Assembly (NCBI RefSeq): GCF_964204645.1
Contig: NC_134026.1
Span: 22,958,650-23,022,649 of the forward strand
DNA from: Tubulanus polymorphus
Lineage: Eukaryota; Nemertea; Palaeonemertea; Tubulaniformes; Tubulanidae
Length of the DNA stretch: 64,000 bases
Direction: 5' to 3'
Made by a program: the position numbers and the translations under genes. Positions 28,615 through 58,699 of the stretch are shown piece by piece. The notes beneath the pieces were generated by a model that was not told the origin of the DNA, searched no databases, and worked only from the letters and a program-made list of their open reading frames with translations. How positions within the stretch are numbered: the first letter of the stretch is position 1; every line of letters begins with the position of its first letter.

Positions 28615-31600
28615 ATGGAGGGTCATATAGGAAACGGAGATGCAGCATGTGGACGATGGCCGGCAGATGTCGGCATCATTGCAATGGAAGTGTATATCCC
28701 TAGTCAGTACGTAGATCAAGAAGAGCTGGAACAGTTCGACGGCGTATCAAAAGGAAAATATACAATCGGATTAGGACAGGCGCGAATGGGATTTTGTTCA
28801 GATCGCGAGGATATCAACTCATTGTGTCTAACTGTGGTTCAAAACCTTATGGAACGGCACGATATTGATTACAAAAATGTCGGACGGTTGGAAGTCGGTA
28901 CAGAGACGATCATTGATAAATCGAAAAGTACGAAGACTGTTTTGATGCAGTTATTTGAAACTTCAGGAAATACCGACATTGAAGGAGTGGATTCCAAAAA
29001 CGCCTGCTACGGTGGCACTGCTTCATTGTTCAATGCTGTTAATTGGATTGAATCTAGTTATTTCGATGGTAAGTTCTGCTCCACTAGCCATCAACAATGG
29101 GTCATCAGTCTATGAATGGCTTGATATCCAGTTTTTTTAATCTAATTTCAGGTCGCTATGCTTTAGTAGTTGCAGCAGACATAGCTGTTTATGCTACAGG
29201 AAATGCCAGATGTACTGGTGGTGCTGGTGCTATTGCTATGCTCATTGGTGCCAATGCCCCATTGATATTTGACAGAGGTGAGTCAACCAGATGATCTCGT
29301 TGATATTGATAACCTTGGTATTTTGTACTGATTTTGTGAACAATCGAAGCACTAGTAAAATATTGCATACTTTCGATATCGAGGAGGTAATTTTTAAAGA
29401 AAAAAAACTTGTCATTAATTTACTGTGTATTCAGTCACTGAACAATTTAATTTCGCTATGATTACGTAAATCATGCAACTGGATTTGCATCAATTTTGGT
29501 CAATGTCCATCTGCTAAGTGAATTTGTTGATATCACATGTGCTGTGTTTACTGCGTAATCAAGTTCTTATTTTACCGTGAAAAGTTTATAAATGAACTTC
29601 TAGTATTCCCGGATAGAACTAATTATTTAATGATCCGTGAGTCACACTAAACTATGGAATCAAACAAAAGTACTATCGGCACATGTAATAACAATAATAA
29701 TGTTTTCGGGTCATGCCTGGAAGTTGTAGCTACATACTAACACTGATATGTCATACATATAGGGGGCCTACTCGGTACTGGTGTACTCAAAAACATCAGT
29801 GCATTAAACAATTATCTGCAAAATATTATCCAAAAAGTTTATATTTTTCTTGTGTAATTAGTTGTGTCAACATGTTTTTCCGGGTTATACAGTTCTACTG
29901 ATTATTATTTCTACCCGATCAAAAATATCCTACCAAATGATATCCTGCAACTAATTTTTTATTTTCTCACATGGTATGTGATTAATAGCTTCAATGATTA
30001 TATCGTCCTTTTTTTGAACTAAGGTACGGATGTACTGAAACTGATGAACAACGACAGAAAACTGGTTGTGATGAAGTTCATTTCAAGTTGAAATATTTTC
30101 AAGATAGATACTCTAGGCTCCCCGAATAAAATCTGCATAATCTGTAGTCTATTGATTTTAAGAAAAATAATCAAATCACTTTATCGACACATTAGCAGAG
30201 TATTCCAGGGGTATTTTCTCACTCTGAGGTGATGTGACCCTAATCTTATTTTGAATAACTGAGGGAATCAAAGGGTGCCAGTTGAGTTATGGGCCTACAA
30301 AGATTCTAAAAGATATAAGCCGCGATAACACAAGCATTTTTGGCCTGGGTCAGATTATTGTGTGTGAATTGCTGCAGGTTCAGCTGACTCACTTCACTTT
30401 GCTTAAGGATGGGCCGAATTTGTGCCATCTGTGCTAATTTTGTATCTATGTGATCGCGGCTTAATTCTCCTCCCTGGATCCACATCAGTCACCTGTATGC
30501 TTAAGCAATGACACTGGTGAATTAACTGTCACACACACGCACATTTTGCAGGTTTGCGAGTTAGCCACATGCAACATGTCTATGATTTCTACAAACCCGA
30601 TTTAGTGTCAGAATTTCCTGTGGTTGCCAGGAAACTGCCCCAAAAATGTTATCTGATGGCTTTAGATAGATGCTACAAACAATACTGCCAGAAATTGGTT
30701 TCAATTACAGCAGGTAAATTCACCCTCCCCGTAGATAGTAATGTCCTTTGCCCTTAATTTCTTTCCAGGTTTACGGGCAATTCATATGCAACATGCATAT
30801 GATTTCTACAAGCCTGATATGGCATCTGAATACCCGGTAGTCGACGGAAAACTTTCTATAAAATGTTATCTTGGTGCATTAGATAAATGCTACCAACTAT
30901 ATGCCAAGAAATATTTGTCTCATGCAGGTAAATTCAACTACTACCAGAACTGGCAGACAAAGTGTCCATACCAGCATTTTGAGGGTTCAAACATTGTCAC
31001 TCAGTCAGTGAAATTGATATGTTCTAAATAACTAATGTTATGGAAATATTTGGTAGCTTTATTTTACCTTATTATTTTAGTTCCAAATGTTTAACGTATT
31101 CAAAATGATTATCTACTTGTTGATACATGTATGACTCATTCTTTTCCAATTCCCAGAAAAGTGAACCACTTCTGCAAAAAAGTGATTAAAAAGCAATTTC
31201 GATGATTTTATTTTCAGGAAAGTCTTCTTCGATATCAAACTTCAACATAGATTCAGCCGATGCATTCCTGTTCCATTCACCTTATTGCAAATTGGTTCAA
31301 AAATCTTTTGCTCGTCTCATGCTCAATGATTTCCTTCAAGATGGTGATCCAGATTTTTCTGGAAAATACGCCGGGTTAAAAGAGTATAGGTACTTCTTGT
31401 TATGTTTATTCATGCCATACATGACGCATATGCTTGAATAATTCTTAATCTTAATGAAAATTGTATATTTATCAGAAAAGTTAAGTTGGAAGACACATAC
31501 TTCAACAAAGATGTGGAGAAGGCTTTCCTAGTAGCCAGTAAGAGTGCATATATACAGAAAGTTGAACCAGGTCTTCATATGGCAAATCAATTAGGAAACA

Positions 31601-32417
31601 TGTACGCGCCTTCGTTATATGGTTGTTTAATATCATGTTTAAATAGGTGAGCATATTTGTATTTACAGTTCAAGTTCATGTCATAATAAGGGTGCTTAGG
31701 AATATCTAAAAAGTAGTATTGTTCTAAAAGATTTTAAGCCATTCTCCTTATAGATTATATTGCTTTATTATTAGAAATTGGTTTCTGGATGTATTTTTTC
31801 CAGTTGGTCGTTGTCGGAAGCAGCTGGTAAACGTCTAGTATTGTTCTCATATGGTTCGGGGCTTGCATCCTCTATGTTCTCAATGCATGTGACAAACGAC
31901 GTCGCTCCTGGTTCAAATCTGGATAAACTTAAGTCTGGTTTCAGTGATATCGACACTAGACTGAACTCACGGACGAAAGTCTCCCCTCAGGAGTTCGCTG
32001 ACACAATGAAATTAAGAGAAGATACCCATCATATAGGTACCTATGTGACAATACACTATGTACTAGTCAAGTCAAGGAATTTGTATGAGAACTTTAACCT
32101 GGGTTTTTGCTGGTACTTAAAATTAGCATTATCATCAGGTTATTGAACTGTTAGAAGTTTTCAAAATATTCTTTTTATCATGGTGCTATTAGGGCTTATC
32201 TACGCGGATCGACTTAATCAAATCATCCATTTGCTCTTTGTATTACTAAATGATGTTAGTGTAAAATGAACGGCATTTGTCTCGATATTTTTCAGCTCCA
32301 TACACCCCTGTAGGAGATATTCATAATTTATTACCCGCTACGTGGTATCTAACAAATGTAGATGACAAGCACAGGAAAACATATGACCGGAAACCAATAT
32401 TGAGTGTGTCCACTTAA
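28615..32417 (+). CDS. HMGCS1: Hydroxymethylglutaryl-CoA synthase, cytosolic type
   Basis: Exons are 28615-29068, 29152-29277, then either 30769-30927 (copy B) or 30552-30713 (copy A), then 31218-31389, 31476-31646, 31804-32036 and 32296-32417. With copy B it is 1437 nt, 478 aa. The enzyme condenses acetyl-CoA with acetoacetyl-CoA to HMG-CoA at the entry to the mevalonate pathway. Catalytic residues are visible: Glu97 (EVGTETIID), Cys131 ([10 protein letters not shown]) and His266 ([11 protein letters not shown]), each two residues beyond the human numbers 95, 129 and 264. SYGSGLA and MKLREDTHH motifs are intact. There is no mitochondrial leader, so it should be cytosolic. It is shorter than human HMGCS1 (520 aa) mainly at the C terminus. 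The third coding exon is duplicated in tandem. Confidence 0.95.
29278..30551 (+). other. HMGCS intron 2
   Basis: This 1.27-kb intron contains MITE copy 2 (30318-30461). Otherwise I see AT-rich sequence with no exon. Confidence 0.7.
30318..30461. mobile_element. MITE with terminal inverted repeats (copy 2)
   Basis: It begins AGCCGCGATAACAC and ends ATGTGATCGCGGCT, near-perfect inverted repeats, flanked by TA on both sides. Its first 30 bases match copy 1 at 5317 closely, including GAGCATTTTTGGC versus AAGCATTTTTGGC. At 144 bp it is an internally shortened relative. TA duplication fits Tc1/mariner-like mobilisation, but that is inference. Confidence 0.65.
30552..30713 (+). other. HMGCS alternative exon copy A (54 codons, divergent)
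   Basis: This exon has phase 1-1 boundaries identical to copy B and encodes the same segment (GLR..HMQH.YDFYKPD..SE.PVV). It has one extra codon, and about 35 of 54 residues are identical to B. Copy A replaces the widely conserved VDGK with VARK and changes CYLGALDK to CYLMALDR. No stop or frameshift disrupts it and both splice sites are good, so it looks selected and not dead. Confidence 0.75.
30769..30927 (+). other. HMGCS alternative exon copy B (53 codons, canonical)
   Basis: This copy keeps the canonical [23 protein letters not shown] and CYL.ALD.CY pattern of animal HMG-CoA synthases and so is the default. Only 55 nt separate it from copy A, and including both would insert a duplicate segment in frame. 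Confidence 0.85.
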
Positions 32418-33565
32418 CATAAGTCTTTGTAGGTGAGTAATAGAGATTGCTTTTTGGGCTGCATTTATTAAATAGTGAGCATATCAGAATTGGTGGCACT
32501 TATAGATAGAATGTAATGTAGCTTAAAACTTTAACAAAATTAAAATATCCTGGATCCAACGGACTTCCTAGTTTCTTTTTACATAACCTACAATCGATAA
32601 TGGACCTCCTTATTTTCAATCTACAATTTATTGCCTTTGTTTTTCAGGTGTTTTTTAAGCAGTGTTTAGTGCAACATGCCATACAAGCACTTCGTTTTTT
32701 TGCTATGGTCAATGATTTGTTACAAGATGGAAAAACTCTGCGTAATTCGTAATGTTCTCAGTACATTTTATTCATCATTGATGCACGCTCACACACATAT
32801 ATTTATATTTATGGTTTAGTATTTTTATATAATTGTTATTAGGCCAAAATTCTTTGTTTAGTTTTATTGGCTGTACTGGTCAGGATTATCAATAATGCAT
32901 GTATTTGATGTCAAGATGTATACGTGTATGTTTTGGAAGTGAATGAGTTTCTAAGACCATTTTAAAACCCAGTTCATTAGCTTTGGTTCTTAACATTTAA
33001 AATGGGATAAAATCCATTTGTTTAGCCTTAGAGTTAAAACTGTGAATTGTGCCACTGTCTCTTGGTTTATGCTTTAAAAGGAATAAGAATCCACAGAAAA
33101 TGAAAGATTGATGTTTTGATTTAAGTATTAGATTTTAGTTTTAATCATATTTACGATTCTGGCCTTGGGGTAAAATTCCTTTTCTGATTGCTTCTCTTTT
33201 GTATCAGAAATTTAGCTCATGCTCATAATGTTAGTAAATCAATTAGTATTACACATCTCTATGATCATTTATTGTTTGGTTGATTCAGTTAGTTAATGAA
33301 ACAAAACTGATATTAGTTGTTTGTATGTACACGGAATAGTATCTGACATATTTTCCAGTATTACGGTAACAATGTTTACACTATGTATTTAAAAAACAAT
33401 CATAGCAACAAAATATCCTGACAAATAAAATATAGAATTAATTAACACCATTGTTTGACTTTGTTAGATTATTGGTTTCATCATTTCTAATTTTGATTTT
33501 TTAAGTCAGAGCCCTGTAGATACGATTTAGGAAGAGGATGCTGAAAGCTCGCATCGTGAGTCCTA
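32418..33565 (+). other. HMGCS 3' UTR, with possible UTR intron and polyadenylation signal
   Basis: Sixteen nt after the stop is AG/GTGAGT (donor at 32433) and TTTTCAG ends at 32647, so a 3' UTR intron of about 215 nt is possible. AATAAA at 33424-33429 is a plausible polyadenylation signal. The remainder is AT-rich with no coding exon. Confidence 0.45.
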
Positions 33566-38500: not shown

Positions 38501-41500
38501 TACAGAATGACGTCAGCGGCAATTGTCACTCCGAGTACAAAGTAGCTGAAAGAGGATGGAACAGTTTTACAGTTAAAAAGACGAAAGATCTTTTAAGTTG
38601 TACTGATAGACACGGGTTCAGAACTTCTCTACAAACCACTCCATACCGAGTCAATTCGGTAAGAAGCGAAAAATGATGTTCTCTAAAAAGATTAATTAAT
38701 GATTTATTTTCTCCACAAAATTATATTATAATTAACAAAATATGTAAGAGGGTTGATTGACAATATGGAGAGGGACAACAAGCAAGCTTTAAAAGCTTTA
38801 CACAGCTACAAGTGCTGAGGCGAGGTGCCCCTGAAGACGATTTCAAAGTTGAATAGGCAATGTACTACTTCTGTAATTGAATTGCAGGATATCCAGTCCC
38901 TGCCCCTGTTGAAAGGTACCCATGAATGCATTCAGAAAATCCATAAGAGCGGCCGGTTACTGAAAAGTGAATGTACTGAGGTCCACATGTTCCGACCATT
39001 CTCGAAAGAAAACAGTGGTGCAATGACGAAAGCAACTCATGTGCTTGAGTTCCTCCGCGAATCCGCTGGAGTACGAACTTCACCAAGTAAGTAAAACTGA
39101 TGAGAAAATAATTGAAAAAAAAACGGTTACTATACGCGCGTAAATAGTGAGAGACCTAGTACCAGGGTACTGTCGTAAAAAGTCGTGAAACATGTCTTCC
39201 GAACGTGCGTAACGTTTCAAAGTCCTGAGTTCAAGTGTTGTTAATCGATAGTTCTAATTGTTTTCTATGATTACTGGTTAATGTACAACTACTCGGGTTA
39301 TAAAGCTATCGCTGATAAAACAATGATTCAAATAGGTTTAAAGATCGAAAAATATGAATCCAAATCATAAAAATCTGGACAAAGAGCTTATCATGTTTCG
39401 AAGTTCAAGTTCGAGTGGATTTTCGCACCTTGATTGTTATCAGTGGCGTAATTGTTTTTTCCCGAAAATAATGGTTTGGGGTATAGAATTGTGCCCATCC
39501 TTTTTGTAGGAGGCAACTTGCGTCGGGGAAATTTGTTTTTCGAACACGAACATGACGCAGAGCAACAACGAACCAACATTCTCCAGGCAACCAATCTGAT
39601 AAGGCAAATTTGCGAAATGACTCAAACTGACATCAGGCCAGAAACTCCCCATCTGTTCTCGAGTCTTGTCTACAGTTTGAGACAACTCGACAGCGCCTCG
39701 CTCAGAGATATGCACAGAAGAATCACATCAAATGCTGTCTGCACAAATAATCATAAAATTGCCAAGTGAGTGTTCCTTTGTGCGTGACTGATAATCCAAT
39801 TCCATAAAAAAGAAATAGATCTCCTTTTCCGCAATTTGACGATGATGATATTTGTCACCATATTCGATATAGCCTGAAAATGACGGTTTGAGCTTGATTG
39901 AGCTTGGAAAAGAATTCATTTCCTGATTTATCTTTTCTCAGGAAGTATTTCCACGATGCCATCCCTATGGTGAATTCCGAGGCTTCAGTTGCACTAATCA
40001 GCGCTCTGGTCACTAATCAACATATGCGAGGTTTGGAAGCGGACATGTGGGTCACGTCTCTCGCGTTCATCCAATCACCTACCACGCAAATGCTCAAATC
40101 TGTTCAGGTAATCACAATCGTAGCTCCAAGCAATTGAAAAAAGAACATTTTTTTCGGTTTGATCAAAAGCAATTAACACCGTGCTATTTGATTTTTGCAG
40201 AGATTATTAGAAGGCCAACCACGTAAGAGCGCTTTCCTGTCCGTATCGGCAATGGTCAACACGTTCTGTAAACATAATTCAGAATGCCATCGTCTCACCG
40301 AATTCGACGGGATTGCAAACATTCTCGGACAACGGCTCGGGACTAGTTGCAAATTCTCCAGCGAAAGTGATAGGCAGTATTTATTCATGGCACTGCGAGC
40401 GGTTGGTAATATGGGGCATTCGACAAATTTGGCCCGTCGTCTGCAAGGTTGCATGCGCGACACGACAAACCCGATTGAAATACGATTAGCCGCCATCGAC
40501 GCCTACCGCAGAATGCCTTGTTCCGTCGATGTAAGTTCAGCGTACGAAAATAGAAAAAAAAGAATGATTATATACTTGAGACCCATTTAGTTATTTTGAA
40601 TGAACAGAAGGCCGCATTACATACGACTTTTCGAACATTATTTGCCGCTTTCTGATATATCCATAGATCGGGCAATAATTGTTGAGTATATTATGTAGAA
40701 AGGTCTGCTGGAGTCATGTACTGTGATGATTCTGATTAGAATAGAAATATCGTATATTTCAGAACACGCATTTGATAGATTTGTTCACGAACAAAAAAGA
40801 AGACCCAGAGGTACGCATCGCAGCCTACAAGGTACTGATGCAGTGCGCCTCACCCGAGCTGCTCGACACAATCAAAGCCACGATGTCTCGTGAAGATGTC
40901 AACCAAGTAGCTTCGTTCGTCTGGTCGCATTTGAACAACCTGCTGAAGACGAACGATATTCACAAGCAAAACATTCGTAAAATTCTCGACGAGACTGACC
41001 TCAACAATGCGTTCGATATGGATAAAAGGAAGTTCTCGAGAAACTACGAAGCTTCGTACTTCTCAGACATGGCCAACGCCGGAATCAAAGCCGAAAGCAA
41101 CGTGGTGTTTTCACCGAAGTCGTTCGCACCACGATCGGTCAACCTGAATTTAACGATGGATCTATTTGGCGAAACGTTCAACCTTCTGGAAGTCGGAGGA
41201 CGCGTCGAAGGCTTGGAGGAAATGGCCGAAAAACTGTTTGGCCCGAAAGGTTATTTCTCCGACAATTCGATCAAAGATACGATCAAGAGAACTCGCCGTA
41301 GCATCAATGACATTAACCGTATTCACGAACAGGTAGAAAACTGTGAATAAAGGATTTGAAATATAAGTTCATGAAATCAAATTATTCAATCTATCACTCG
41401 TTCATTTTCAGTACAAAGGTGGAGCGAACAGAGACTTAAAGGGAAATATGTATTTACGTATTTTCGGCCACGAACTGAGCTACTTAGAACTGACGAACAT

Positions 41501-44500
41501 GGGTGGAAGTGGCATGAACATTCTCGATATTCTTATTGCGTTGGCCAGAGATCACCACATCGACGTGTCGAAAAGTTTCATGTTCTTGGATACAACGATG
41601 ACCATCCCCTTGATGACTGGTATGCCGCTGAAACTGTCCGTCAACGGAACTTCAACTATCAACCTTAAAATCAAAGGAAAAATGGACATGAGAAAATTAG
41701 GCAGTAGTCCACGGAGTCTCGACATTACAGGATATGTAAAACCAAGGTAAAGAAGCTAATCCGATATTGATATACTGGCATTTTAATACCATTCCCAATA
41801 ACTTATCTTATAGCTTCACAATTCTTTTACAGTGGTGCTGTAGAAATATCTTCGCTGATGGGTGTCGATGCTGCAGTTGCGCGAACTGGCCTGAAAATGG
41901 TCACCACCCTGCATTCCAGCACTGAAGTCGACGGCTCCATCGTCATCAAGGATAGCCAGATCGTCAACGTAAAATTCAACATGCCGAGAGATAAGATTGA
42001 AATCCTCAATGTTGAGTGAGTTCCACATGATAATACCTTATTTATCACTAACAATTATACGATTCTTACATCGGTACGTGTATTCTATTGACAGGAATAA
42101 ATTCTTCATCGTTCACCGCGAGACCGAGCGAGAACAAAAGATGCTCGCCACCGAACCAATAAAAAAACGCACATGTACGCCTGCGTACATGACGAAATTG
42201 GCGGGAGTTGAGGTCTGCAGTCAGATGACTTACCCTAATTACGAAAGCGGTAGCTTGGAACCTATTCAGTATCCATTAGCTGGACCTTTTAAATTGGGTG
42301 TAGTTCTTAACAAACGTGATACGCATAGTTCGTACGAGTTTGAAGCCAAACTGTTGACTCGAAAGGTTAGACAAAGATTTCCTCACGTATAAGTTTGCTA
42401 TCATTATATTACTACGTCACAGCCAGTTACAAATGAATTTGATTATATAAACATCAATCATATCTAATCGTATTTTTTCAGCACCGTAAGAACGGCGTTA
42501 CCCACTACGCTCACGAAGCAAAATTGGCGTTTAACACTCCGAATTCACAGGTGAACAGGGAATTGCTTCTGGATTTCAAGTTAAACAGGGCCGATAAGGC
42601 TTTGAGCTTTAACCTCATTTCACCATGGAAGAAAGTCAATATGAACGGTAAAGATTTATTCCAAAATCCCTTTTTTTTTGATTTTCTGAGCTTAAGAATG
42701 TGTTTTTGCAAAATAAGCTTAAGAGAATTGGTTCAAAATGCATTAATTTTATCATCAAAAAAATTTATCTTATTATCATCCAGGTGCCATTTTGAATAAT
42801 GCCGGTCACAAGCGTTTGACCGGACGTCTTATGATGGATCAACTTCGAGAATACTCGCTACTTGCCGAGGTTGAGATTGACACCAAAGAAGGCCGACGAA
42901 CCATTACCCCTAACGTCGAAATCCGCATGCACAACCGCAATACTGTATCCCTGCGAGGCCAGATAGATCACAGCATCGGACAAAGTTTAAGCGCTCATTT
43001 ATCAGTGGAGAATCTTTTCCGTCGACCTTTGACAATGAAGGCTGACTTGAAAAAACAGAAACAAGGCAGTAGTGGCACAAGGTTAGTTAAATCTGCCTTC
43101 ACAACGTTTATTTACAAATGAATCCTTATCGTAAACTTGCAAAATGCCCGTGAAAACTGTTCAAGGCACTTTTTTAGCAAAATAGTGAACATGAAATTAG
43201 AAAATTATTCATCTATTGTCATATCGAATCATTCGATGTAATCATTTCTTGTTAGTTGACAGTTTTGATGAATCTAATTTACATGTATTTGTTAAATCTT
43301 GTCACCAACAGATACGACATATCAAGCGAGTTCCATTCGCAGATCTTTCACTCGAAGGTGAAAGGATTCCTGGACGCAAGACGCGGGAGCCGTTACACGA
43401 GTCGAGTCGAGATCGAATACGGGAAACAGCGTAAACCCGAACATCGCATGGTTGTTAACTACAAGATGAGGGACAGAACATCTGCAACATTCCGACGAGT
43501 GATGGTCGACACGTAAGTCGTGTGACATTAAGTTCATTTCTTCAATCTCTAACACATTCGAACCGAATGCAAAAGTTTGGTTATTTTCAACTTTTTTGAT
43601 AGAACAATGACGTTTACTTTATCTATTACGTTTTATTTTGTCACTTTCTTTTCATTTGTTCAAAAATTTGATTGAAAAATATTTTCCTTCAGCGCAATTG
43701 AGAGCAGCCAATACCCGGATTACGACTTCCATACACGGTTTGATCTTCAGAAAACTACCACTGGTCATTACGAAGGAACTGCATCGTTGCAGTACGGTCG
43801 TAACCCTAATGATATTAACAAAAAAATCGACACACATGTATTACTCAAGTACAACAGAGCTGGCAAAATTGTAAACGTCGAATCTTCGGCTAGTTTCAAG
43901 TATCCAGTCATTGTAAGTGGATTTGTTAGAGTTTAATATAGTCGGACACTACAGTCCAGACCCATCATGAATTATTGAATATTTCTTTTTCAGGAAGCTG
44001 ATTTAGCCACGAAACTGACGGCTAACCACCGACCGTCGCAAACAAAGGTTAATACTGTCTTACAGTGGGCAACTGGTAAGCAGATGACTACCGACGTTAC
44101 CTATCGAAAAACTGGTGAAACGCACTATATCAACGGTGCAATGACCTTACCAGCCAAAGCGCCAATTTCATTCAGCGGAAATGCGAAGCTAGACCCCAGA
44201 GATTTGGCCATATCGGGACAGGTAAATTATGAAGGCCGTATCTATGTTGGTGATGTTGCTTATGTTGGCGACGCTTCTATCAATCACGATCTTACTGCGA
44301 ATCTCCAACTGCCAGACAAACCCCCGGCCAATCTGAAGGTTATTGGCAAGTTGGATCCACGTGATTTCATTGCCAAACTTAATCTGAAACACAATTACAA
44401 AGAGTATAACAGTGAATTGGTGTATAGTCTCAAAACCACTGGAGAATACCCGTCTGTTACTGGCAACCTTGACCTTAAGCACCCCACACGAAGAATTACA

Positions 44501-47500
44501 TCAGTTCTCGAGTTCGGATTTCACCCAAGGAGAGTTGACGGAAAATTGGACTTCAAATGGGACGCTGATAGGGATAGCAGCAAAGTTTTCGCAACGAATG
44601 TGAATTACAGATATGAAAATGAAGGCATTACGGTAACTACTCAAACAACTTACCCAGGACGCACGATGAAAGCAAAATTAGATGCGAATCGAGTAGGAAA
44701 CGCATATAGCTGTCGTACCGAAGCAGAATGGAGTCCAACCGATAAGATTGTACTTGATATATCATTCAACAAAGCCACCAAAACCGACGGACACGATATC
44801 AACGGAAGAATTTCTCTTACATCACCGTTTAAGAATGTGAAGAAAGTTGGATCACAATTTACGTTGACATCCGGCAGTACTCCGACAAGGAAATACCAAG
44901 GAAATGCCGAGGTGTGGTGGGGAGACCAGAAAAAGATCATATTGGATGGAATTCTATCCACCCACTCCATTAAAAACTTCGAAATAAAACTGACAGCTAC
45001 TACACCATTCGACGGTTATCGTAATCTTGGCGGTCATTTGAAAAACGTTATGGACACTTCATTGTCGACAAAGGCATCTATCAAATACGGCAACAAGGGC
45101 ATTGACTTCGATCTTCGACTTGACCGACGAGAACTTACGTTAAAGATGATGTCTCCGTTTGAATACATGGAAAATGCAATGCTCAACTTACGCGTATCGA
45201 CTGCAGATGATGGCATGCGTATGGTCGAACTTCTTTTCCGTTCCAAGCCACTCATTGATGATGTTACTGTGACGGTTGGTGTAAATCCCACGGGTTGGAA
45301 GAACTTTGGTGGAAAACTAGCGATTAGAACGCCATTCGAGTTGGTGAAAACTGCTGACGTAGAATTGGTTAGTTTGCTGACTGACAGGGAATTTAAAATG
45401 ACGTTTGGTGGCAATTATAACGGAGTGCAAGGAAAATACAGCTTGAATTTGAAAAATAATGGCAATCTTGGTAGAAACAACGTCGAATTCATGATGAGCG
45501 GCAGATGGAAGCAACGTATGGTTGAACTGATTATGAAACACAACGACAACGGAAGACAATTTAACTCGAATTTCGATCTAACGTACAACACCATGAAACT
45601 GCTTTCGGCTGCACTTGACGTGTTCCATGATGCGAACGATGTTCACGTTGAAAATAACGGAAACTACGTATGGGAGCTTAATCTATATCAGAAGAAGTAC
45701 ACATACAATCACTCCTGGAGACAGAAATTTACGAAAAGTGATGGACAAGTTTCGGCCCAGCACGCCATTACTGTTAACGGTCGTAATTACGTGTTCGATT
45801 TAAGTGGTTCGCATAGGTTCTCATTGGGAACTAGACGCATGATTGGTACTCTCGAAATGACTATTCCCGGACTTTCTGAAAAGGTCATCACTAAATTGCA
45901 CTACGTCAGAAACGGAAAGGAGAACCTCGAAGCTAAATTGAATGTATTCAGCGGTGTCCGTATATTTAACGTTGAGTTCGATTACAAGTTTGATGGCAGT
46001 TATGCTAACGTAGATGCAAATTTGAACCTGGACGTCAGTGGAGTCGTTGCTACAGCAGTAAATCCGATCGATATGAACATCAAGACGCATTATTCGGGAT
46101 TCCCGTACACAACGCATTTTGAAATAACAGGCCTGAAAGACCGCTTCGTCGTCGATCTGCGACACGAGAGACGGTCTTATTCAACCTACTTTACCAGGCT
46201 AGATGCAGACATTTACGGGAAACAGGCCAGTCTTCAGTCAACCTACGAAAAAACTTTTGATTCGATGAGCAGCGACATAAAGATCAAAACTCCGTATAAA
46301 CATCTTCAAACTCTAGATACGCTAATCAAGTGGAATGGTTACATTGGTGGGCAATTCATGCACTCTTACAAAGTTGTCTATTCTGGGGAGAAATACCAGT
46401 TCACTTATGCAGCTGACCAACAGATGACTACATTGACAAATCACGTGACGACTATCAGTTTAACCAGTAATATTCCATCTTACGAAAACGTTCAGATTAA
46501 GTTTGACCAATCACTGACTCATAATAAGTACCAACTTATCAAAGACATGACCATCGGACAGAAGTTGCAATGGCAGTCAACCTTCACCATCGAGTACGAG
46601 AACAACCGTCCGTCATCAACATGGGTCGCAACGATCAACGGAAACAAAATCAATATACACGGTGAAGCTCTTTATCAAAAACCATCATTTAATGGAGAAC
46701 TCAAGTTTGAATTTACTCCATTAAACGGAGAACTAAGCTCTATTGTTACTAACGTTAGGCTGAATCATGGAGAAGAACTCGAATTGCATGGAGATTTCAA
46801 GTTGACATGTCATCATATGAAAAACATCGATATGAAATATGACCTGAACAAAATAGCCAACAAATGGCACTCTGCATTTGAGGCTAATGTAGAAAATATG
46901 GGCAAATACGAGATGAACGCTGAATTCAAAAAATCATTGGAAAATGCTAGATTTACGATGAAAACTCCACATGAAAAGCTGAAGTCGCTTGAATCTACGT
47001 TTGAGTATAATCCAGAAAATCCATTCCGAAATGTAAAATTAACCGGGGAACTTATCTATTCCGGATACAAGAAAGCGTCACTGTCGGGTAAATTGAAAAT
47101 CAAGTCGTTGAAAGACATCGAGGTTGAATTCACAGCAAACGCTCCATCACGAAACTACGAGCTCAAGCTGATGCGCAGGAAAGATATTGGAATGTCCAGT
47201 ACGAAATTCTTAGTCGACAATGCTGGATCGAAATTTGAATTTTCCTCACTGTATCATCCAAAGAATCCTTTCAATTTAAAAGTTGAACTGAAAACACCGA
47301 TACAGTTCATCTCATCGATGTTGCTTGAAATAAACAACGATGTGAAAAGTTACAATGAATTTAAGCATAAGTTCGTGTTCGAATACAACATTTACGTCGC
47401 CCGTGTCAGACTGGAAAATGAATGGGAAGTCAACGGACCAGAATTAGTCAAAGGAGCCATGAGAATGACGAGTCCAATAAATTCGTACGAGTTCTTGCTA

Positions 47501-50500
47501 TTTACCGTCGATCACAGGCGGCAAGGTGACGATTTACTGACTGATGTAGAATTCAACCGAGTGTCAAGACAGAGGTTCCAGTTAAGACAGAGATTGAACC
47601 AGATAGACCGACGATATGAGCTTGATCTCGAAACACCTTGGGAAGAAATGAGAACGATGAAAGTTGTGGCTGTACAAGAGGGAGAGGGTTCCAGCTACAA
47701 CTTCAAATTGGATATGGAGATTCCACGATACAAGTTAGACTATTCGTCAATTCGACGACCAAGTTCAATAAAGACCATTTTGAAATTGGATACACCCCAT
47801 GATGGTTTCAGAAAAATCTCCCAAACCATGGAATTACAATTAGACGATGACACTACCGATTTCGGTTACAATGTCGACATTTCTAAACGCTATAACTTCG
47901 AAGCGAAATACAACCAACGAAACCAAATTGGAAACGGTATTGAAAGGAAGATATCAATTACTGGAAGTACCCCACACGATGTAATGAGGTCAATATCCAT
48001 CGATCTAACCTATGGTGGTGTGTGGAATAATTTCAAGAGTAATTTGATTATCAACCACAATAAACTACAAGTTCCGGTCTATGTTGTTTTGAATTATAAA
48101 GCAAAAGCTAATGCTGAGTTTTCACTGAAAGGCCCGGTTATGGAACTGGTGTTAAAATACGACAAGTCAAATGATTACACGTATGTTACTGAAACAAACT
48201 TACGTTACGGCAGCGATATGTATATCCGGCTGAACAACGAATTAAGACCGCATAGTTGGACAAGTTGGGGAGGCTCATTAAAATTGGAAACGTCGTTTGA
48301 AAGATTGGAGATGACGAAGATAGACTTTTCTCACACTGGATCAAGACTTTCATTCACCAACAACATCAAACTGGATTCCCAACGTTATGGGGAGATAAAC
48401 TGCAAAACTGAATGGACGACCCGGCCACAGTACAACGCGAAGGTAGCCATTCTCACGCCTTTTGATTCGTGGGAGAAAATTGAACTGTCACTGAATCACA
48501 TGGGCAGCAAAAAGGAATTCACCACAACTATCTCAGCAGTTACAAATACAAAGAGGCTCAGCGGTACATTTAACTTTAAGAACATCAACGGTCTCGAGGC
48601 TCACTTAATGTTATTGACACCATTCAAAGGGTATAACCGAGTCTCAGCAGCATTCAGTCACACTGGAGTGCTCCGAAACTTCCGTACCGGTTTAACGATT
48701 TCACGACCTGGCCGGGAATATAAAGTGAACGTCGAATTCAAGAAGCGACCAGAAATTGAAGTTCGACTAGTTGTCAAGACGCCCTACAAACATTACAAGC
48801 ATCTAGAGTTTTACATGAAGCATTCTGGCAATTTCCGACAATTCACCAACACCGGTTTGCTACAGCTGAGACGAGGAAAGCGCATTGATACCAAAGTTAT
48901 CATCGATACAAATGATTTGAGTGCGCTGTATGTTCGAGGAGAAGTAAAAACTCCATATGAGAAGATGAAACAGTTGGTTGCCTCATATCGACACAGCAGC
49001 AATTCTGCAGATTTAACTGGCAACTTAGATATCACTTTTAACGGCCGTGCTATAAACACGATTCTAGCGTTCAAAATGCCAACGCTGAATGACATCACTG
49101 GATCCATAACGATGAAAACACCGTACACAAATTATCAAGAACTTGTTGCTTCATTCGAACATAAAGGTCATTCGAAGGCATTCCATACCAACGGTAAAAT
49201 CCAATACATGACTGGAAAAACTATTTCTGGTGAATTGACGTTTGGAAGGGAGATTAGAAAGATTGATGTTGAACTGAAAATAAGATCCCCGTGTCCACGC
49301 ATTCCAAATGCTGCTGTCATACTGAAGTTTGATGCAAACGACAAACTGGACTCCAAATTACAAATCCTCAGTGGTTTAAATGAAGCTATGTTTGATTCTG
49401 GTCTATTGGTAGCTGCCAATGCAATTGATGGGCATTTACTTATTAAGACTCCTTTCAAGCCGATGCGCAAAGCTGAATTTAAGTTGGCAGTCACTGACCA
49501 AATCGTAGCGTCGTTTGAAGTTGATCATAATGCTGGAAAAAGCGAAGGATCAACAACATTCAAATACAACAAACAAAATGGCATGGAGTTAACTGCGAAA
49601 GTAAATACACCACACGACATATCAGGGTTAATTTCTGCTACTATAGCAAACCGTTGGACGACATACTCTGGTACTACAAACTTCCAGTGGGCTGCAGACA
49701 AGAAAATAACGTTTAGTGAAGACACTAAATTTACAAAAACACATGGTTTAGTGAGCAAGTCGTATATTTATACTCCGTTCGAAAGACTTGAGATCATATC
49801 TCTTGAACTGCACCACAATGGCAATATGGATGATTTCACGACCAATGCTGTTGCTGAATTTGGCATGGGTAACAAGGCATATGCGGCTGTGCAATTCACA
49901 AAAGGTGTCAGTGGCATTTTATCATTCCGAAGCCCATTCAATTATGCAGAGAACTTGAGTTTGAAGTATAGCAAGAGAGTAGTCGATGGAAAAGACGGTG
50001 TCCATTTGGAGACATCGTGGGCCGAGGGTAAAAAAGTAACGTTTGATTTTGGACACAAATTCTCTGGTATCCCATCCGCCTTAACGCTCGATGTTTACGC
50101 AAAGATAACCACCCCAACGAGTTGTTTGCCACGACTGACAATTGATATGGAACACAAACACGGCGACGGATTCATTAGTAATAAGTTGGCTGTTACTACT
50201 CGCAGACGATATGACACAGAACTTGATCTTGAATGGAGTGGCACAGGAGTAAAAGCAGAGCTAAATACCAGATCACCGGTACCAATGCAAATAACTATGA
50301 ATTTGCTGAAAACTGGTAACGACGTGACAGGAAACATGATGGCTAACTGGGACACGCGGGTATTGGACAAAAACGTTCAGGTTAACCTCATGCACACCGA
50401 CAGTTCCAATTACTTTATGCAAAAATACACGACATCAGTCAAAGTGACTTTACCATGGAGAACTATGGGCGCCGAGAACTATTTCGAAAAGACGACATAC

Positions 50501-53500
50501 AAAAGAATTCACCGACTGACGACGACTCTCGACGAATCCCGAAACAGAAAAGCTTCTTGGGAACTGATAGTTAATGACAAATCCAGAACGTACGTGAGCA
50601 ATTTCGATGGTGAACTCACAGTGACGACGCCGCTCCGCACGGTCCGCACAAAATTCTCCCATTTGCGAAACTCGGTTAAACACGACGATTCTTTGGAGAT
50701 TATGTGGGACGCTGCCAGTGATATGGCGAAAAAGGTTACAACTCGAAGTGTTATAGAAACCAGAGGCAAAACGAATACTATGAAGCTGTCACTTACGCAT
50801 CCTAGACTATCAAAGGTAAGCTTCGCGTGTATTTCGATGAATTGTTTTGGGTGTGTCAACATCGGAGTTGGAATTTAAAAAGCTTTCTGAACTAAAGATA
50901 AATTTGTTTCCTCTTTTCCAGCCTATTTCAATTTCTGGTGAAGTGACGATGAACAGCGGTAATAAGCTCATTGATTTGAAATCCACCTTGGACTATTCTA
51001 CTGATCCACGTGACCTGATAACAATGTATATGACCATACAGTCGAGAGGACAAGCAATGGACTACGTAACAACAATCGGTTACACGCATCCTAAATCAAA
51101 CTCCGACCATAAAATCACGATTACGACGATTGACACAAGCTCTAGATTGGAAGGTGGTATCGAAATAAAATATGTGGGAAAAATTGCTGAGTTGAGGATG
51201 GAAATTGACAAGTTAAAACGATCACTACTGATAAAGGTAAAAAAGCACGCTTGGATTTTTCTCTTTTATATGAAATTATCTTCTATAAAATATATCCTGC
51301 AGGTTCCTGTAATGAAACCACGTCTTTCCCATTTAATCGCCAATGGCAAAGTGGAAAGAACCTCATCAGGATACAAGGTAGACTGGACGAGCAGTTATGG
51401 GGTGAGGAAAGTGGAAGCTGAGGTAGACATTAACATGGTAGTACCGAGTATTGATCTTCGTCTAAATCATGACAGTGGTAATTACCTCGAGATGTCAGTG
51501 TATGTAAAAATATACAAATGCCGTATTCTAGTAATATTATTTGTTATCATTGTCCAATTGCAGAAAATCCAGACAATCTTTTGCACCTGTATGCCCGTTA
51601 CCTTAGTCACAAAGAACTAAAAATAGAGGCTTATCGTCTGCAAAATGGTCTGAGAATTACTGACGGCTTATTGACTTTATACATGAATACGACTAGACTT
51701 CTTCATACTCGTCTTCACTGGAGACCAAATTTCTACAAAGAGGCTAAGGTAAAACTCTAATTATTCATCAATATTTTTAGAAAGGTAACGTTGAACCAAA
51801 TTAACCGTGTTTTGTTTTCTATTCAGTCATACTTCAGTTCCCAGTTGAGTGACTACCGCACAAGAACATCAGAGATGCTGGAAGCAAATCGTTTGGCATT
51901 TGCTCGATTCAGAGCCAGCCGATCTCAGGAAATCAAATCAAGTATTCCCGATGTCACCGAGCTACAGAACTACATCCGCAGTGAAATAGACTCCGTTCTA
52001 ACTGAAGTGAACATTGTTAGAAATGCGTTCGATGTTATGTACAATAATAACGAATTCTTCATGCAGGATATCTCGACTCACGTTGGACGTGCTGCTGCAT
52101 ACATCCAGTATGTATAAATTCGCACGGATATGTTTTTCTCTTGTTGTTTTATTTTTCTTTTGTTAATTAATTCTAAAAAGCACCAAAAAGATTAAGAAAA
52201 TTAACTCTCGTACCTTTTAGGGCAAAGACCAGGATTGTCGGCCTCCGAGCTCTTCGTGCATGGGGACACTTGAAACGTACGTCGTTGCAACGTTTGGCAG
52301 TGTACCGACGCAAATTGGAGGAAAAACTAAATAATCTGCAGGATGTAATCGCCGAACTTGTTCTCAAGTTCAGACCAGCTTGGCAAAAGTATGGCTACAT
52401 GATGATAAGCAGTTACAATGTAGTTGTGCAGAGGATTTCTCACACTATGGAAGAGATGGTTGAAAAAATGGAGGTTAGTTGATAAAACCTTTTAAACATG
52501 TTTTGCATTTTAGAGAATCGCATATGTTCTATGAATATCTATTGACTTACGAACTGTATTTCTTAAACAGGATTTAAAAGTCCAGATTGTGGATTATTTC
52601 GATAATCAATTTGACTTCATCAGCTTGCGAATGCAACCATACTGGACTAAGTTTACAGGTTTGTATTACATCGGGTGATCGATGCTTTAAAACCTCGTGC
52701 TTCTTTGATTCTTACGAAGAGATTTCTTCGTTTACAGAATGGCGCCGTAGCTTGAGGAGTTCTCTTGCCAATGTCGATGACGAAGGATACCTCAGAAGCC
52801 TTTTGGAAAACTTAAGCAGGTATCGTGATAGTTACAACAGATGGGCTGCTGAAGTTAATGCCAAATACAAGGAAGTCATGCAGAAGGTCGAACAAAAGGT
52901 TGACGAACAAATGGAAAAGATTCTTGGTCATCGTTTAACTCAGATGGCCATTGCTAAATCCAAACAGCTTTATGAAGAGGTAAAGAATAGAGTAAATGCA
53001 TCCATCAGGGTATTCTTTAGAAACAAGTTCACAAATCTGAATCATCTACTCTTTTACAATGCTAGGCTAAGCGTCTTTACATTGAATACGAAGTTGAAAA
53101 GAATTTCCAAGAACTTGTTGCCACATCAATTGAAACTGGCAAGAAAGTACTTCGCAGCCAACTCCATGACATCGCGAAGAGTTTCCTACTGTTGGACAAA
53201 TCAGGATTTACAGTGTGGGACCCGAAGAATGGGGAAATTCAAGCTGAAATCTATCTGCCAACCAAGATCAAACAACTGAATAAGTTGCCAGAATTCAACC
53301 TTAACCAACTGAAAGCAGAATTGAATAAACTCTACCGGAAATTCATACCGAAATCCGATTACACCGTATGGGACTACTTCTATATGTACAGACCATCATC
53401 TGATATCAATAATTGGCTACCACCATTTAAAGGTAACGAAATTAATATTGCTTTGCAAATGTTTTGTGACCATGTGCTTGAAAACGTGGAATTCGTTCTA

Positions 53501-55791
53501 ATAACAGTCGATCTTCATTTCAGGGCACGCTTCCATTCTCGGCCAGAGTCACTTCGTTACTTTCGATCACCGTATCTACGACCTAACAGGAAGCTGTAGC
53601 TACGTCTTAGCGCATGACTTTGTTGGTAACACTTTCACATTCCTTATAAACTACGAAAATGGTGTCAGGAAATCAATCACAGTTATCAGCAATAACAAAC
53701 AGATCGAGATCTTCCCAGATTTCAAGGTACAAATGTGGAAAGCATTTCAGATATTTCCAACGCTTGGTCTGTGGGATGTGGGATCCGAAGAAGAGAAATC
53801 GCAAAATTATCATTTACATTTCAATTCTTTTAAGGTAACTGTTGACGATCGCCAGACTGAAGTGCCAATCCAATTCATGAATACGTCTGTCATCAGACAC
53901 AGCAGTGAAATTCGCATCCATAACGAACAAGGCTTTACAGTTACTTGCAACATGCTCACTGAGATTTGTCGCTTCAACGTGTCCGGCTGGTATTTCGGAA
54001 AGACTGCTGGTTTACTCGGAACCTTCACTAACGAACCTGCAGATGACTTCACCACTTCTAGTAATCAAGTAGTCGAAGATGTTGACGAGTTTGCTCGCAG
54101 TTGGCAAGTGGGAGAATATTGCAGAAATACCCGAACATTCGCGGTTCAAGCTGTACAAACCGGGGCGGCCGCCGACAGATGTAGAGAACTGTTTGAATCA
54201 ACATCATCACATTTGCGACCAGGTTTCAAATTGGTAAGTCATTAAAGTTTTGAGTTTGTTTTGTGTCAATGATTGTACTGATGAAGCAATTGGTTTTATA
54301 CAGGTAAACCCAAAACGCTACTTGGACATGTGTTTGAGGGATATTACATCCGTTTATAGCGAAGACGTTATCAATGATAAATTATGTGCAGTGTCAGCGC
54401 TATATGTTTCCAACTGTAGAAGCCATGGAGTTCCCGTGCGTCGTCCTAAATTCTGTGGTAAACAAATCGTTAATGTTATACATACATTTTGGTAGTCATA
54501 CCAGACTTATTTGAACGAATAAAGACATTTGAAATGTTTCTTCTGATCTAAAGCAAAATGTGATAGTCCGTTGTCGTCGTTCTTAACTGAGGGACAAAGT
54601 GTCAAGATCAAGGCTTCAGAGATTCCGGCGACGAGATCTGCAGATGTTGTATTCGTGGTTGAGGAAAAGCAATGCAATATGGGTGTCGCCCAGAAACTTC
54701 AGGATCTCGCTATGCAAATAGATACTGCTTTGAAGGCTGAAGGTAGGAGAAGTCAAAGATTCTGTTACTTATTATGCATTGTAATGAGATATCAAAACGA
54801 AATGATAGTATTTCCAAATTTCAGGCAAAGAAGGTAACAGATTCGGAGTCGTCGGCTTCGGTGGTAACAAAATCCACGATTGGGAGCAAACTCACTCCAT
54901 GGAAAATCTTATATTCAACAATGTACGTAAAGTGAGGATGGCGGCCGAGATTCTCGACTTCTCAAAGGACGGTAGCAATAAGGACATCCTTCGAGCTGTT
55001 CAATTTGCTGCAAAATATCCGTACCGAGCCGGGGTCGCTAAAATCGTAATCGCTTTGCCATGCTCGCAATGCATACCGAAATCGGTGTCGTACACAGAAA
55101 TGCAGTCCGTTTTGAATGACAGGGATATCCAGTTACATATTCTGATGAATTACGACTTCTTACTCAGAACGAGCTCACCGAAGAGTAACTACATTTTTGG
55201 AGCTGACGGTAGAGCTGTTTACACGAGCAAAGACGTGTATTCCGAGGTTCTAAATGGCGACGAGACCTTACTGCGTCAAGTGGTTATGCCAAAGGATATC
55301 TGCGTCGAATTGGCAACGCAACGAAAGGGATCTGTATTCAACATCAAGAAAATGATGGCCGGTCGCGTAAGCTCGCAGAAATCCTTCCTTGACGTATTCG
55401 CTCGACGTGTTGCTAAAACTGCCAAAGCCACTGAATGCCAAATTTGTGAATGTACTTCCGATAATACTGGTGCTGGCTTAACAGTTTGTAAACCATGTAA
55501 TATTCCGTCCCAACGATTCCGAGTAAGTTTCTTTCATTTTGATTTTTGCCGAAATAATGTCAGGTTTAGCATTGCAGCATTTAAATTCCGTTTTCAGTAC
55601 ATTTCTGGTGCATACAACCGTCTATTTGGCCACCCAGATGAGCGACCAATAGATATACCAGAACCAGATCCAATGTCGACCCCTAAACTTGACTTCAACT
55701 ACCAGGTATGCATTGATTTAAATCTGTTTGAAATATTAATTTATTTGTAACATTATTCATATATTGTTGTTCATATTTTTAGGAACGATAG
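35590..55791 (+). CDS. Apolipophorin II/I-type large lipid transfer protein precursor (4786 aa)
   Basis: 33 exons: 35590-35644, 37683-37736, 37854-38014, 38161-38415, 38506-38658, 38888-39086, 39510-39765, 39942-40107, 40201-40530, 40763-41332, 41412-41746, 41833-42015, 42095-42365, 42482-42647, 42784-43081, 43312-43512, 43693-43912, 43994-50815, 50922-51236, 51303-51477, 51564-51748, 51827-52107, 52221-52473, 52571-52658, 52738-52979, 53066-53432, 53524-53726, 53835-54233, 54304-54457, 54554-54742, 54825-55522, 55598-55705, 55783-55791 (14361 nt). Order: signal peptide (1-18), vitellogenin-N lipid-transfer module (about 37-610), furin site RTRR (719-722), DUF1943-like then DUF1081-like region with CTP and C-S-Q motifs to about 1010, long beta-repeat region (about 1290-3570), helical region (about 3790-4170), von Willebrand D domain (about 4200-4380), cysteine-rich module, vWA-like domain (about 4490-4640). 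The family forms secreted lipoproteins that carry lipids in the circulation. The architecture favours apolipophorin over vitellogenin: no polyserine is seen. The exon 26 acceptor is the least certain border. Confidence 0.9.
35645..37682 (+). other. Apolipophorin intron 1
   Basis: This 2-kb intron separates the signal-peptide exon from the rest, a common arrangement in secreted-protein genes. Short open frames inside (for example 36182-36409) show no domain I recognise. Confidence 0.7.
43994..50815 (+). other. Giant 6.8-kb coding exon with internal beta-strand repeats
   Basis: A single uninterrupted exon of 2274 codons encodes residues about 1292-3565 of the apolipophorin. About two dozen repeats begin with TP or SP followed by an aromatic residue or His (for example TPFDSWEKIELSLNHMGS, TPFKGYNRVSAAFSHTG, TPYKHYKHLEFYMKHSG) and often end with H-x-G. 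Spacing is roughly 60-80 residues. They alternate with beta-rich KxxxE/D strands, as expected of the lipid-binding amphipathic beta region of large lipid transfer proteins. All long antisense frames here are shadows. Confidence 0.85.
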
Positions 55792-57280: not shown

Positions 57281-58699
57281 TTATCCACACGAACAAACGC
57301 CCCCTTTTTTCTTCTCCTGCTCTTCTTCCACAGGCACCACTGGATCGATGGACTTCGGTCGGGGAACAAAATCTTTTGGCAGCTTCTTTGCTGACAAATA
57401 TGATTCAAAACGACGCTTGTACAAAATGAATATTTGAAATGCGTGACACCCATAATTTACAAAACAAAAGTATCGCATTTAGCAAATTTGCTAGACTGAA
57501 TAGATATGTACCGGTGCCTTTTTACCGAACTCACCTATTTCTATAAATATTTCGTCAACATTCGTGCCAAATTTTGCCGAGGTTTCCAAGAAAATGAAGC
57601 CGTGTCCAGAGGCGTATTGCTTGGCTTCCTGAAAGGAAACGTCGTAAGCAAAAAATTAATCAAGACAGTTGTATTATGTAGTGTAATGAAGAAAAAAACG
57701 TAATTCTTGGAAATGATGTTCCCACTCACTTCGTACGACACAACACGTTGCTCCTTGAGATCAGATTTGTTTCCAGCAAGAGCAATGATAATGTCTGGAT
57801 TGGCTAAACGCTGCACCTCACGAACCCATTCTTTGGCCTTTTGGAACGATTTCTTTAAAATAGACATCGTAAAGCAGAGAGTCAAATTTCAAAGCCCGAA
57901 TAAAAATAAGTCAGATTCAAATAAAAATAAGTCAGATTGTCTACACAATAACGTACTGATTACAAAATATATAAAAAGTAATACGATTTTACGGAGCCCT
58001 GGGATTGACTCGAAAGAAAATTTTCCACAGACAACTACCAATATTAGGTACTATTAGTATGGCTCATACAACTGCGTGTGACGATTTTATGAAATTTTCA
58101 GTGTTCAATGGTAACTTATTTGGCTTCAATTTCAGAAAGGGTCCCCTCTCATCCGGGCCCATTTTAAAGATGCCCGCCGATGGCGTTCCCACGAAGAAAA
58201 CATATTTTTCGCTCTGTCACACATTTCTTTCCAACGAAAAGATTTTACTTACTCTGTCAGTGATGTCGTAAACTATAACTGTTGCTTGGGCACCTCGATA
58301 ATACATTGGGGTTATACAGTGAAATCGTTCTTGACCAGCTGTATCCCATATTTCATATTTATACGTGCAATCTTCGATTGTCACCGCATGTGACGAATAA
58401 GCCGCTGAAAAGAGGCGATTATTTGATTATTATTTGCCATTATGTGAAGATATAAATCACGTGCATCAAACGAAAAAAAGAAAGTCTAAAAGAAAGATGT
58501 TTGTTATTTATTGCACTTTAGTTTTACCTCCGATAGTAGGATCGATTTGCTTAAATCGTTTGTCCGTAAGCTGTATGACGATACTTGTTTTTCCAACTGC
58601 CGCCTCCCCCAGAAGTACTAAGCGAAAAGGTCCTGACTTCGAATGTGCACGTGGTCTCGGCCGTTGCGGATTCTGAGACCGTTTAGTCTTATTTGGCAT
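57281..58699 (-). CDS. Rab5-related small GTPase, divergent
   Basis: Minus-strand exons are 58699-58528, 58404-58253, 57852-57730, 57628-57512 and 57415-57281 (699 nt, 232 aa). G boxes are intact: GEAAVGKTS (31-39), PTIGAA with Thr55, WDTAGQE (77-83), NKSD (136-139) and ETSAK (164-168). MYYRGAQA and ALAGNKSDL resemble Rab5/Rab22-type Rabs. In the family these cycle between GTP and GDP and direct endosomal membrane traffic after geranylgeranylation of C-terminal cysteines. Unusual points are an extended basic/proline-rich N terminus ([15 protein letters not shown]), Glu32-Ala33 in the P loop, and a [10 protein letters not shown] end, so the two cysteines are CXCX and not the common CC or CXC. 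The exon-4 donor used here (GTACAT) is weak and was chosen because it keeps frame with the tail; see findings. Not assignable to a named Rab. Confidence 0.85.

Follow-up and report, generated by a model that had tools for sequence, protein, structure and literature searches.

Homologous exon pairs that exchange one segment of an enzyme are known from exons 9 and 10 of PKM and from other human tandem duplicated exon substitutions (PMC9741552, PMC5740500), among which pairs that lose most or all of the predicted binding residues in one copy are a minority (PMC9741552). In the case of the vertebrate metabolic enzyme OGDH, the internal exons 4a and 4b are mutually exclusive, and branch points situated 25-46 nt from the upstream donor enforce this exclusivity (PMC7969005), since they fall under the limit of ~50 nt proposed on steric grounds for simultaneous assembly (PMC5740500, PMC7969005). 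A further example is the alternative oxidase (AOX) of the oyster (Crassostrea), a metabolic enzyme encoded by a single-copy animal gene, in which a tandemly duplicated exon 10 is used alternatively, the second copy being conserved and the first carrying novel residues near functional sites (PMC5589949). The gene described here resembles all of these: it encodes a metabolic enzyme, it has an internal pair of homologous exons that would exchange one segment of the protein, as in PKM and OGDH, and, as in the oyster, it is single-copy, with a conserved second copy of the exon and a divergent first one.

The window, which is the whole stretch of 64 kb that was analysed (G+C 36.6%), comes from a genome of ~268 Mb in chromosome-scale contigs, and its + strand carries the whole of a gene for HMG-CoA synthase. 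The gene content and form of this genome suggest an invertebrate. HMG-CoA synthase is a central enzyme of the mevalonate pathway, committing carbon to sterols (cholesterol), isoprenoids and ketone bodies; a gene for it is generally assumed to give a single protein, and control of the enzyme is usually discussed in terms of transcription, phosphorylation and separate genes. We propose, with a probability of about 0.8, that the present gene gives rise to two isoforms of the enzyme by mutually exclusive use of two tandemly duplicated exons, which we call A and B. The features of the gene, in window coordinates, are as follows:

28615..29068, + strand: coding exon 1, from the start codon to an Asp-Gly junction, with the catalytic Glu and Cys131 (aligned to human HMGCS1)
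29152..29277, + strand: coding exon 2, 126 nt, the 5' partner common to A and B, with the strong donor GAG/GTGAGT
29278..30551, + strand: intron 5' of exon A, 1274 nt, with a CA-rich end and a weak acceptor
30552..30713, + strand: exon A, 162 nt, the divergent copy, with VARK for VDGK, Ser223 replaced by Pro and one additional codon
30714..30768, + strand: spacer intron between A and B, 55 nt, with a yTnAy branch-point candidate and a stop if retained
30769..30927, + strand: exon B, 159 nt, the canonical copy (VDGKLS), ortholog of human HMGCS2 exon 4
31218..31389, + strand: coding exon 3' of the pair, the common 3' partner, with the catalytic His266 (HSPY)
31476..31646, + strand: HMG-CoA synthase coding exon
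31804..32036, + strand: HMG-CoA synthase coding exon
32296..32418, + strand: last HMG-CoA synthase coding exon, with the stop codon

The assignment to the HMG-CoA synthase family follows from full-length homology together with the catalytic Glu, Cys and His. Coding exon 1 matches PF01154 with E 4e-75, and isoform B, of 478 residues, matches human cytosolic HMG-CoA synthase (PDB 2P8U, HMGCS1) in phmmer with E 1e-203; its identity over the whole enzyme is 65% to HMGCS1, 59% to HMGCS2 and 51% to the plant enzyme. E97, C131 and H266 are invariant in the family alignment, and the duplicated segment lies between Cys131 and His266, where an earlier note on this DNA had placed it. In a whole-genome profile search, both Pfam halves of the enzyme match at this locus alone and no second HMGCS paralogue was detected; such a search can miss weak matches, although exons A and B themselves scored high. 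Downstream of the gene, the window holds a gene (40192-55750, +) for a large vitellogenin/apolipophorin-type lipid-transfer protein, with vitellogenin N-terminal, open beta-sheet and VWD domains and one uninterrupted frame of 2299 codons that matches no Pfam model, as well as a Ras-family exon (57544-57888, -) that by eye is Rab5-like.

Exons A and B are adjacent and homologous, of similar length, of identical phase (1-1) and free of in-frame stops; their splice sites are canonical GT-AG, with the same donor, CAG/GTAAAT, in both, and 55 nt separate them. In all this the earlier note's description holds, as does its reading of VDGK in B against VARK in A and of one extra codon in A; its figure of about 35 of 54 shared residues, on the other hand, is corrected to 34 of 53 aligned residues, and a further replacement in A, of the invariant Ser223 by Pro, was absent from it. 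The similarity of the two copies is well above what chance would give, both in protein (tblastn between the copies, E ~6e-20) and in DNA, where a repeat scan reports a direct repeat of 151 nt with 72% identity, the recognisable duplication stopping near the exon borders. Exon A on its own scores 79 bits against Pfam HMG_CoA_synt_C, the two exons are the top two matches to this profile genome-wide, and no third copy was found in the gene or in the window. Splice-site variants c.559 and c.850 are listed for human HMGCS2 (PMC12428298), and the borders of A and B match these in position and phase, with an offset of +37 between HMGCS1 and HMGCS2 numbering, the match at c.850 holding up to a variable length at the end of the segment. 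It follows that the exon that was duplicated is an ancient and conserved one, corresponding to exon 4 of human HMGCS2.

With respect to the way in which the two exons are kept apart, exclusion by reading frame is ruled out, as both lengths are divisible by three: the frame does not enforce exclusive use and allows double inclusion or skipping, being open for A alone, B alone, both and neither (480, 479, 533 and 426 codons, respectively, including the stop). Incompatibility of U12 and U2 sites is not indicated, all the sites concerned being ordinary GT-AG, and the search for competing intron-intron RNA pairing gave no signal (z between -1.4 and 0.75).

For comparison with the spacer, profiles were matched exon by exon to genes of the same genome for chaperonin (CCT), kinesin and myosin, and intron lengths were measured or estimated from the matches. 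The refined introns, 28 in number and of 77 to 646 nt, come from CCT and HMGCS. The kinesin and myosin list comprises 105 entries, three of them with apparent lengths under 70 nt; two of these three lack a stop and are read as protein insertions, and the third turned out to be a genuine intron, with 76 nt. One intron estimated at 73 nt proved to have 79 nt. In the sample of ~131 introns so obtained (28 refined, 102 estimated and the one measured at 76 nt) the shortest has 76 nt, 21 nt more than the spacer, and shorter introns would make up at most 2.2% (95% upper bound, as computed for 133). The best branch-point candidate in the spacer, identified as a match to the motif yTnAy and not by mapping, is situated 43 nt downstream of the A donor and 11 nt upstream of the B acceptor, and retention of the spacer brings in a stop codon within it. 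This candidate block of cis features agrees with the earlier proposal that so short a spacer commonly bars joint splicing. A spacer below the sampled intron floor, a branch-point candidate at less than 50 nt from the donor and a stop on retention, taken together, make mutually exclusive splicing the explanation that best fits the sequence: with so little room (~43 nt) between the A donor and the B branch point, the spliceosome would be unable to join A to B, and each transcript would take either A or B.

The splice signals point, in addition, to an unequal use of the two exons. The acceptor of A scores 5.5 bits, against 7.6 bits for that of B, and falls below all but one of the 28 reference introns; directly 5' of it lies a CA-rich tract (30528-30551), a possible site for a CA-repeat-binding splicing repressor. 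The better acceptor of B and the weaker one of A behind the CA-rich tract suggest that B may be the default exon and that A would be used under regulation. At the donors, A and B share 13 bases (GCAGGTAAATTCA; window 30710-30722 and 30924-30936), and the persistence of these bases despite near-saturated synonymous sites suggests constraint beyond the usual donor positions. The intron upstream of A also carries a 20-nt inverted repeat (30311-30330 / 30449-30468; 85% complementary, 118-nt loop), which might represent a small mobile element or else form a structure that acts on the A acceptor.

Selection on copy A, which the earlier note had named as a check on its reading, was estimated by comparison with B over the 53 aligned codons. 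The copies differ at 23 of ~33 synonymous and 26 of ~126 nonsynonymous sites, which gives dS ~2.1, near saturation, dN 0.24 and dN/dS ~0.11 (bootstrap 0.02-0.29 over the 53 codons, with a dS interval from 0.9 to unbounded). When neutral decay was simulated from B, none of the 4000 runs at each setting with a branch length of at least 0.4 substitutions per site gave 34 identities without a stop, and identity averaged 9 of 53 when the branch length was 1. The replacements themselves are mostly of an accepted kind: 15 of the 19 in A are residues used at the same site elsewhere in the family, as compared with 7.7 expected from random nonsynonymous steps (P 0.0002). Near-saturated dS, a dN/dS of this order and the failure of neutral decay to reproduce the pair thus indicate that A is an old, constrained coding exon and that both copies have been maintained; judging from its substitution pattern, A has been a translated segment of HMG-CoA synthase for most of its history. 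On the date of the duplication relative to the vertebrate split and to plants, the AU test on a tree of 53 residues rejects no topology. A scan of viral contigs found no relatives.

The remaining four replacements in A (A212V, D219A, G220R and S223P) are absent elsewhere in the family sample, and three of them fall in a single turn, changed from VDGKLS to VARKLP. D219, G220 and S223 are conserved in 78, 80 and 80, respectively, of 80 bacterial homologues and are kept by the human and plant enzymes, so that the predicted isoform A lacks an intact VDGxxS turn, present from bacteria to human. D205, F206, P209 and Y227, which are the remaining universal residues of this exon, are retained in A. 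Near the dimer surface, at the position affected in the human disease variant G232V, A has Val and B has Ala. The earlier note's placing of the segment near the acyl-CoA pocket is supported, as S223 corresponds to Ser258 of human HMGCS2, named among the residues that maintain the active-site structure (PMC5979369), and the changed turn neighbours HMGCS2 Val253, classed near the substrate site, where V253A has an activity of 24% (PMC12428298). The changed residues and these published HMGCS2 sites predict that condensing activity would be altered or lost in isoform A. Isoform B is probably the ordinary enzyme, although this is held with less confidence than the splicing model. Isoform A would keep the catalytic Glu, Cys and His and the Asp205 motif together with a remodelled acyl-CoA/active-site turn, and, again with lower confidence, it may be a subunit of altered specificity or low activity that modulates flux in the dimer. 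That the rebuilt acyl-CoA turn confers a new substrate preference (e.g., for another acyl-CoA), or makes of A a regulatory, catalytically silent subunit, is a tentative suggestion to which we give somewhat less than an even chance; the loss of universal residues could also mean that the isoform is non-functional.

The same loss of three invariant residues, together with an acceptor among the weakest of the set, is what would be expected if exon A were the dead relic of a tandem exon duplication, no longer spliced in. This reading is nevertheless unlikely, as it has to accommodate a dN/dS of ~0.11 at near-saturated dS, the absence of a stop in A, replacements that are mostly family-accepted (15/19) and a pair that neutral decay does not reproduce at branch lengths of at least 0.4; it is left only with the recent death of a long-functional exon, and such a recent loss of use is possible. 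That the duplication is only apparent, owing to an assembly artefact or collapsed haplotypes, has a negligible probability, because 49 of 159 aligned bases are different between the copies, many more than alleles would show, and both copies lie in one contiguous chromosome-scale sequence in a window with no N.

If A is spliced in, the question is whether it excludes B. Both exons might be present, always or at times, in one mRNA, giving an enzyme with a duplicated segment of 54 residues; the frame would be kept, and very short introns are spliced in some animals, among them a human intron of 56 nt (PMC8363638). However, the spacer is 21 nt under the shortest of the ~131 sampled introns, its branch-point candidate is 43 nt from the donor, and a duplicated 54-residue segment in the thiolase-fold core would probably be unable to fold, so that we consider joint inclusion highly improbable. 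A more serious objection to the role assigned to the spacer is that exclusivity might come mainly from trans-acting regulators or RNA pairing, the spacer being incidental, or that A might act as a cassette-like switch to an inactive enzyme. A repressor could bind at the weak, CA-rich acceptor of A, and the lost active-site residues fit an inactive product, but the introns show no pairing beyond the ordinary, and so strong a constraint on the protein sequence of A speaks for a product that folds rather than a throw-away one; we regard this possibility as doubtful, though worth keeping in mind. Mutually exclusive use of A and B, imposed by the spacer, is thus the reading that we prefer.

If true, splicing of a single-copy gene would exchange one active-site turn for another and so provide the pathway with a new point of control, and the A/B pair would be a natural experiment on the role of the near-universal VDGxxS turn. 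As the prediction consists of exact exon junctions, it is testable with any RNA-seq of the species or its relatives. Our search of 5.39 million open papers revealed no HMG-CoA synthase with exons described as duplicated or mutually exclusive, in line with the earlier note, which knew of none at this place in the enzyme, and HMGCS is not mentioned in the main texts of two human exon-substitution surveys (PMC9741552, PMC5740500). Elsewhere in the same genome, a muscle-type myosin heavy chain gene (locus L017, G000 C4:4125126-4126944) has four tandem exon copies (Pfam Myosin_head ~119-152), whose starts are ~550 nt apart and whose ends are nearly identical, with donors resembling GTAAGTAA, and looks like a classic alternative-exon cluster.

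Compared with the closest described systems, the HMG-CoA synthase pair differs from the oyster oxidase in that the exon of the latter is terminal and chosen by 3' alternative splicing, whereas here it is internal; in that all known critical sites are kept in both oyster copies, whereas three near-universal residues are replaced in A; and in that the oyster case is backed by transcripts, whereas the present pair is known from genome sequence (PMC5589949). OGDH is an unrelated enzyme, and its intervening intron uses distant branch points (PMC7969005), whereas in the HMGCS spacer just 11 nt separate the candidate branch point from the acceptor, and the full length of this intron is under the sampled floor. 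The solved human and plant HMG-CoA synthases, for their part, have a single version of the segment, with VDGxxS. The class of mechanism is known, and what is new is the gene for which it is proposed and the loss of near-universal residues in one of the two copies.
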